Virus record (IMG/VR): IMGVR_UViG_3300029922_000017
Span: 62,001 to 126,000 of that record
Reading direction: 5' to 3' (one strand)
Length of the DNA: 64,000 bases
Origin: a virus
This document shows positions 60,286 through 62,160 of the stretch, in pieces (the first letter of the stretch is position 1; the number at the start of each line of letters is the position of its first letter). The notes below the pieces were generated by a model, which saw only the letters and a list, made by a program, of their open reading frames with translations, had not been told where the DNA came from and did not search any database. Made by a program: the position numbers and the translations under genes.

Positions 60286-60468
60286 TCAAGGACTAATCAT
60301 TTTAAAATATTCGCTAGGAATAATTTCATTTTGATTAAATCCATAAAAATGGTCAATCAACAAGCCTTCGGGATGTAGTTTGCCAGTTATTATTAAACCT
60401 TTTGGATAAAAGGAATTACCACCATAACCGTGGTAATTCCATTTTTTTATTAGTCTTACTTTAATCAT
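60286..60468 (-). CDS. Small beta-rich protein
   Basis: 60 residues, MIKVRLIKKWNYHGYGGNSF, basic N-terminus with an NxxPKG turn. TTGACT-16-TATAAT ends 7 nt before the ATG; its stop is just before the next TTGACT. Confidence 0.6.
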   Translation of the reverse strand: MIKVRLIKKWNYHGYGGNSFYPKGLIITGKLHPEGLLIDHFYGFNQNEIIPSEYFKMISP

Positions 60469-60560: not shown

Positions 60561-60704
60561 ATGGGAAGAAAAAAGTTATATATCACCGAGGAAGATAAGA
60601 TGACCGCCGCCCGAAAATGGCGAATGGACTATTATTGGAGAAACCAGAAAAAAGAACAAAAACGTAATTTAAAAAATTATCATGAAAGAAAAAAGCCAAC
60701 TTGA
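60561..60704 (+). CDS. Small basic GRK protein paired with an HNH gene
   Basis: 47 residues, MGRKKLYITEEDKMTAARKW, then MDYYWRNQKKEQKRN. Overlaps the HNH start (60682) by 23 nt in another frame. Same form as 57050-57226, which also precedes an HNH gene. Confidence 0.55.
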   Translation: MGRKKLYITEEDKMTAARKWRMDYYWRNQKKEQKRNLKNYHERKKPT

Positions 60705-61464
60705 ATATTCTCGTATTTGTCCCGAATGTAATGCTAAAATAGTATTAAAAAATAAGAATTCTTGGTGGGCAAATAGAAACAGTAAAAAATCATGTAGAAG
60801 ATGTGTGATTGGATATTCTCTTGAAGAGGAGAAATTTTTAATCGATAATTATTCTAAATTAGGACGGAAAGAATGTTCTAGGCAATTGAATAGAACGGAA
60901 TTTTCTATCGGAGTTAAGACAAGTAAACTCAGACTTGTTATGACACCCCAACCCAAAGACCCAATTAATAATAAAATATGTGTGAGATGTGATTTGGAAT
61001 TATCAAAAGATAGATTTGGAGTTACCAATCGAAACAAAGATAAACATAGTAATATGTGTAAATCATGTTCGCAATATGATAGGCGTCGGTCAGATAAACT
61101 TGAAAACAAGCGAAAATATGATGCAATCTACAAAACTAAAAAGAAAACTTGTCCTATATTTAAACTACGCAAAATAGTAAAAAAACGAATTACACGAGCA
61201 ATGAAACTAAAAAGTATAAAGAAAAGACATTCTATAATTAAATTGTTGGGATGTTCCATTATAGACTTGCAACAGCACTTAAAATCACAATTTAAATATG
61301 GAATGTCTTGGGATAATCATGGCTTTAAAGGTTGGCATATCGACCATATAATTCCACTTTCATCGGCCAAAACACAAGAAGAAATGGAAAGGCTATGTCA
61401 TTATACAAATCTCCAGCCTCTTTGGTGGTATGAGAATTTATCAAAAAAAGATAAGATATTATAA
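60682..61464 (+). CDS. HNH homing endonuclease with zinc modules
   Basis: 260 residues. N-terminal CPECN...CRRC zinc module shared with 18874 and 39400, a helix-turn-helix-like EEEKFLIDNYSKLGRKECS, a second CVRCD...CKSC zinc pair, and a C-terminal HNH of the GWHIDHIIPLSSA...NLQPLWWYENLSK type. It is the only plus gene in the last 30 kb and overlaps its pair gene 60561. A selfish insertion between 60468 and 61836. Confidence 0.8.
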   Translation: MKEKSQLEYSRICPECNAKIVLKNKNSWWANRNSKKSCRRCVIGYSLEEEKFLIDNYSKLGRKECSRQLNRTEFSIGVKTSKLRLVMTPQPKDPINNKICVRCDLELSKDRFGVTNRNKDKHSNMCKSCSQYDRRRSDKLENKRKYDAIYKTKKKTCPIFKLRKIVKKRITRAMKLKSIKKRHSIIKLLGCSIIDLQQHLKSQFKYGMSWDNHGFKGWHIDHIIPLSSAKTQEEMERLCHYTNLQPLWWYENLSKKDKIL

Positions 61465-61880: not shown

Positions 61881-62125
61881 GAATGAAGGATATAATCGCC
61901 TTTCTGTAATTTAACTCCGACATATATCTCATTATTTCTAATGGTCGTATGCTACTAACGACTGCTTCAACCTTCGCATTATCGGGAAACATTACCCTAG
62001 CGACTTTAGAATTGCAGATACCTTGAGGTAATAACGGGCTATTAACCCTTCCTCGGCTGTTTTTCTGTGACGAATTTCCTCTATTATAGGGCTTTACCTA
62101 TAACAGCGTCGGAGTCCTTCATTCA
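61881..62125 (-). ncRNA. 245-nt structured RNA with own promoter
   Basis: The predicted start (about 62125) coincides with the 5' strand of a closing stem: GAATGAAGGACTCCGAC pairs with GTCGGAG (61921-61915 on minus) and, 24 nt later, TCCTTCATTC (61890-61881). Inside are TTATAGG/CCTATAA, GAGG/CCTC around GGG..CCC and GTCGT/ACGAC. No ORF on either strand is plausible. The 3' stem is followed by ATTTAATTTCTTG. No known RNA family recognised. Confidence 0.75.
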
Positions 62126-62131
62126 AATTGA

Positions 62132-62160
62132 ATAATATCACACTTCCTTAAACAAGTCAA
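62132..62160 (-). promoter_or_regulatory. Promoter of the 245-nt RNA
   Basis: TTGACT-17-TATTAT on minus, overlapping the end of 62138-62359. The start is predicted 7 nt after the -10, exactly at the RNA's first helix. Confidence 0.75.

Follow-up and report, generated by a model that had tools for sequence, protein, structure and literature searches.

The RNase P RNAs of bacterial class A (rnpB, M1 RNA; Rfam RF00010) are approximately 350–400 nt in length. Reduced RNase P RNAs, from which helices are missing and which are found only below model thresholds, are carried as cellular genes by CPR bacteria, while in the megaphages of the same study only tRNAs and a tmRNA were seen (PMC8172020). The precursors of phage T4 tRNAs were among the early known RNase P substrates (PMC11143913), and RNase P has so far been treated as a host function that is borrowed by phages. 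A full-text search of mainly open-access papers gave no description of a phage-encoded RNase P RNA, and prior notice elsewhere is possible. Phages go unmentioned in papers on RNase P finders, as does RNase P in the main text of the huge-phage paper; phage carriage of this RNA appears to be unreported.

The window analysed here, a 64,000 nt stretch of a 139 kb viral record (IMGVR_UViG_3300029922_000017), contains on its minus strand at 62124–61881 an RNase P RNA gene of 244 nt from P1 to P1, recognized by the archaeal RNase P model RF00373 and by a phage model, R1, from which it was held out. The first-pass annotation had described an RNA of 245 nt, of undescribed type, with its own promoter, base-paired ends, and no readable protein. 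An ORF of 41 aa is the only one in the locus that reaches 30 aa. The minimum free energy fold, at −66.4 kcal/mol, is much more stable than those of shuffled sequences (−50.9 ± 4.5; z = −3.5; 0 of 200 as low). The stems paired in this fold are exactly those that had been named, being the closing stem GAATGAAGGA/TCCTTCATTC at 62124–62115 and 61890–61881, its extension CTCCGAC/GTCGGAG at 62114–62108 and 61921–61915, and the hairpin containing TTATAGG/CCTATAA. The distance from promoter to stem and both neighbouring genes are also kept in a relative. The RNA is not undescribed, in that the RF00373 and R1 matches make it a recognizable, very reduced RNase P RNA, and the earlier reading is thus partly supported, as to an independent structured RNA though not as to an unknown class.

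A search with Infernal against Rfam had been proposed for this RNA, and at the gathering cut-offs it finds only tRNAs in the window. At relaxed thresholds, cmscan places RF00373 over the RNA from end to end (model 1–288 at 62124–61881; 23.8 bits, E = 3.6e-5, or 3.6e-6 over the whole 139 kb record), with the runners-up at chance level. This score misses the curated cut-off of 84 bits, but that cut-off is a curation threshold and not a structural feature, and the majority of the evident RNase P RNAs from tRNA arrays of phages also fall short of it. RF00010 does not match the RNA in the 139 kb record. Model R1 is a covariance model of 21 other phage RNase P RNAs, and with it the RNA scores 40.7 bits as the only match, with E = 7.4e-11 over the 64 kb window and E = 1.6e-10 over the 139 kb record, the next non-target score being 7.3 bits and the E-values from such models being rough. 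It was not recovered by nhmmer with a sequence-only profile of 12 phage RNAs, and the suggested BLASTN search for homologues, made against 50,697 phages, returned only 51 nt matches at chance level. The comparison that had been drawn with 6S, tmRNA, and ornate RNAs does not hold, there being no such Rfam family here at gathering or relaxed thresholds and no tmRNA reported by ARAGORN. The RNA is almost certainly an RNase P RNA.

P4, P5, and all of the conserved motifs of an RNase P RNA are present in the expected order. The closing stem corresponds to P1, for which 9 of 10 pairs are kept in G030, the related phage contig described below, and its extension to P2, for which all pairs are kept. 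P3 is the hairpin CTGTTATAGG-taaagc-CCTATAATAG (62106–62081), with a UAAAGC loop that is identical in G030. Based on the phage alignments, CR-I (GAGGAAA) and the 5' strand of P4, AAU[U]CGUC with its bulged U, together occupy 62081–62069, and this P4 strand pairs with GGCGAUU (61900–61894) within CR-V, ACAGAAAGGCGAUUA (61907–61893). P5 is formed by CAGA (62067–62064) and UCUG (62018–62015), and CR-IV follows as GCAAUUCUAAAG (62015–62004), whose GCAA and A-run vary little or not at all across the phage alignments. Hand alignment to the phage sequences suggests a P15-like stem, UCGC/GCGA (62003–61974), with a GGU in its loop (61996–61994) at the place expected of the CCA-binding motif, for which it is a candidate. 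At the position of P17/P18 there are two hairpins (61962–61930), GUCGU...ACGAC and CAUUA-GAAA-UAAUG, the latter with a GNRA loop, and the conserved AGAUNNAUG segment, here AGAUAUAUG (61929–61921), precedes the 3' strand of P2. Read along the minus strand, the motifs are GAGGAAAUUCG close to the 5' end, GCAAUUCUAAAG centrally, AGAUAUAUG ahead of the second stem, and ACAGAAAGGCGAUUA ahead of the closing stem, and CR-I (GAGGAAA), CR-IV (GCAA...AAA), and CR-V (AGAUNNAUG...ACAGAA...UUA) lie in order.

The full specificity domain (P7–P12) is absent, with a remnant of about 45 nt between the strands of P5. The domain is reduced in many of the phage relatives too, and a full domain is not universal in the RNase P RNA family. 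By its predicted structure the RNA is of an A-like type with a strongly reduced specificity domain. It shares with bacterial class A the ends closed by P1, P2, P3, P4 with the bulged U, P5, CR-I, CR-IV, and CR-V, and, as a candidate by hand alignment, the P15-like stem with GGU, and differs from it in being 244 nt, in its small specificity domain, in being phage-encoded, and in going undetected by RF00010. The best Rfam match is to archaeal RNase P RNA over the full length of the model, probably because that model is also compact. The score of 23.8 against 84 bits, the σ70-type promoter, and the presence of RIIA and RIIB set it apart from the archaeal RNAs. With the diverged RNase P RNAs of CPR bacteria, which are cellular genes, it has in common its missing helices and its detection only under model thresholds.

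Relatives were collected from IMG/VR with degenerate CR-I/CR-V patterns, P4 pairing and covariance model matches then being required, as many of the raw pattern matches were chance matches in coding sequence. The first patterns yielded clear RNase P RNAs in about 20 records and the last pattern in about 18, on contigs as long as 374 kb. Of the first set, the RF00010 cut-off is reached by only 5 and that of RF00373 by only 2. The first three gapped patterns demanded a G at a position of P4 where the window has C, and copies like that of the window came from a later pattern. In viral contigs, the exact CR-V string occurs at 12 loci, none of which has RNase P context, and these were taken as chance. 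The swapped G-C type of P4 was found at 5 loci in genome contigs, of which only L152 (Diapherotrites) is RNase P RNA-like, and no host could therefore be named. One further phage locus, L133 (IMGVR_UViG_3300004463_000307), has an RNase P-like RNA in which P4 is fully paired but P1 is weak and the middle region differs.

Invariant motif columns are common to the window RNA and the phage RNAs in alignments of 13 and of 30 sequences. Across the 30 sequences, P4 is paired in 99.5% of cells and P4 with P5 in 99.1%, with two-sided changes at 8 of 11 pairs and a covariation score matched by 0 of 500 shuffles. The patterns fixed two A's of the 5' strand of P4, the bulged U, one C, and TTA, with one G also fixed in the first set, and the invariance of these P4 columns is in part a product of the search itself; no position was fixed in P5, nor in columns 61/338, 65/335, and 66/334, which covary strongly. 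Columns 61/338 are G-C in 15 sequences, C-G in 12, and U-A in 3, these being the window, L129, and L141. The window has U-A where most have G-C or C-G, and G-C where most have C-G or A-U, which makes its P4 a compensated variant in its own right. Conservation among the phage RNAs is highest in the catalytic core, comprising P4 with the bulged U, A-rich CR-I, and CR-V. As judged by these sequence comparisons, an RNase P catalytic core is present in the window RNA and is kept by selection.

Contig G030 (353,772 bp) was reached through its RIIA protein, which is 52% identical to that of the window, and not through the RNA. R1 identifies an RNase P RNA in it at 72.9 bits, which the Rfam models miss, and this lies between homologues of both neighbours of the window RNA. 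The neighbours are on the minus strand, phrog_12204 downstream (61836–61459; 67% identical in G030) and phrog_10518 upstream (62880–62488; 59% identical), both of a function that is not known. Two small ORFs between these neighbours in the window are absent from G030. No RNase P RNA match was obtained in the contig with the closest RNA ligase relative (L088, 214,733 bp).

Between the window and G030, 36 of the 37 pairs that make up P1, P2, P3, and both P17/P18-position hairpins are kept, against 29–56% paired when the pairing is shifted by 1–3 columns. The absence of compensatory changes in a homologue was to have counted against the RNA, and there are 10 that are two-sided: one in P1 (A-U to U-A), three in P2, which also has one G-U change, four in the P3 stem, and two in the GUCGU...ACGAC hairpin. 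The loop of the CAUUA–UAAUG hairpin is GAAA in the window and GCAA in G030. G030 also departs from the consensus at near-universal positions, GAGGAAA being GAAGAAG and ACAGAA being AUAGAA, which makes activity in that lineage less certain.

There is a good σ70-type promoter on the minus strand at 62160–62132, as had been proposed, TTGACT-17-TATTAT with an extended −10 (TG), the −10 ending about 7 nt before P1. G030 has TTGACA-17-TATATT at the same distance from P1. The window holds 15 copies of the pattern TTGACTT(13–17)TATA[A/C]T, where 0.13 would be expected by chance, for example at 60289–60262, 60503–60476, and 61870–61843 on the minus strand; the promoter of the RNA, with TATTAT and a spacer of 17, resembles this recurrent phage motif but is a variant outside it. 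No intrinsic terminator was found 3' of the closing stem, where the promoter of the next gene (61870–61843) begins 11 nt downstream. Close to the RNA locus, on the opposite strand to the surrounding genes, there is an ORF of 260 aa (60682–61464, plus strand) with a C-terminus that appears by eye to be HNH-endonuclease-like and with no Pfam match.

Similar RNAs are present in about 40 phage records of varied sizes and base compositions, range from about 195 to 290 nt, and are mostly below the Rfam cut-off. Those of the first set are mostly within tRNA arrays, and several directly abut tRNAs, often 0–2 nt away, and there tRNA processing may also generate the ends of the RNA. In contrast, the window RNA has its own promoter, and no terminator, and is outside the tRNA array of its phage, at about 124 kb of the record compared with about 11–40 kb for the array. 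The cultured Microbacterium foliorum phages A3Wally (L119; MZ150783.1, 93852–94072), Zooman (L123; OK040793.1, 89338–89558), and Big4 (L124; ON637770.1, 91779–91999) each have the RNA between tRNA genes at a site without annotation. Like that of the window, these RNAs are phage-encoded, small (about 220 nt), and below the Rfam cut-off (51–72 bits), while they are G+C-rich, in a tRNA array, and have the common G-C type of P4. The short contigs, for which host contamination was weighed, have no bearing on the cultured phages and the large contigs. One contig of 114,812 bp (L023/G006) combines an RNase P RNA with GOLLD RNA, a tmRNA, and many tRNAs.

In two uncultured phages, LR745206.1 (634,780 bp) and LR756511.1 (595,163 bp), R1 scores 87 and 103 bits, there being no full-length Rfam RNase P match in either; weak RF00373 matches in LR756511.1 (E = 0.005 and 0.019) were dropped in favour of the 103 bit R1 match. 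The RNA of LR745206.1 is at 502054–502280 of the record, which also has an RnpA gene (PF00825, 49 bits, RNR motif; 1409–1756 of L158, 75000–78200). This phage is a candidate for a complete viral RNase P, with both RNA and RnpA.

The window phage has RIIA, RIIB, and an Rnl1-type RNA ligase/tail fibre attachment protein, and the σ70-type promoter and RIIA/RIIB genes indicate a T4-like phage of a bacterial host. It carries about 36 tRNAs, 32 outside and 4 inside the window, most with an encoded CCA. RnpA was not detected in its record, which may be incomplete, nor in 25 of the 26 phage records searched. Very probably, the RNA is a phage-encoded RNase P RNA that is transcribed from its own promoter and, probably with the RnpA of the host, would trim the phage pre-tRNAs. 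Transcribed from the minus strand by its σ70-type promoter, it would join the host protein, the partner proposed because the phage record is without its own, and would cut the 5' leaders from the precursors of the approximately 36 phage tRNAs. Maturation of these could then continue even with the host RNase P in short supply, mismatched, or disabled.

It is unlikely, though worth weighing, that the RNA is a mimic which, rather than cleaving substrates, binds pre-tRNA or the RnpA of the host, inhibiting or reprogramming the host RNase P. The lack of RnpA in the phage record and in nearly all of those searched, the very small specificity domain, and the altered near-universal positions in G030 would all be consistent with a decoy, but such an RNA need not retain a catalytic core, which is the part most conserved, and the copies within tRNA arrays and the huge phage with an RnpA gene besides the RNA also speak against it. 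Both core conservation and tRNA context point towards an active ribozyme over a decoy, and the window RNA is likely to be catalytically active in tRNA processing. It is very improbable that the phage acquired the gene from a host RNase P RNA and that the copy is now decaying and without function; the low Rfam score and the drift at conserved positions in G030 would fit this, but P1, P2, P3, and the P17-position helix all carry compensatory changes relative to the orthologue at the same locus and the promoter is intact in both phages, which places both the stems and their expression under selection. An unrelated structured phage RNA, 6S-like or ornate, that resembles RNase P by chance would suit the closed ends, the promoter, and the empty Rfam result at gathering thresholds, but is barely credible given end-to-end matches to two covariance models made from different sequences, P4, P5, and all of the conserved motifs in the right order with covariation, and an orthologue at 72.9 bits with the phage model.

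On balance, the tRNA-rich large phages probably form an unrecognised group with their own catalytic RNase P RNA, at least one of which, at 635 kb, also has RnpA. This suggests that these viruses bring their own tRNA-processing ribozyme, overlooked by annotation, and the phage RNAs are candidates for small natural RNase P ribozymes. The culturable hosts of the Microbacterium foliorum phages make knock-out and in vitro cleavage experiments feasible now. If the reading as an active RNase P RNA is true, the maturation of phage tRNAs would be independent of the host enzyme, through a specialised and shrunken ribozyme, and tRNA-rich phages would carry processing machinery besides the tRNAs themselves, which bears on why phages carry tRNAs.
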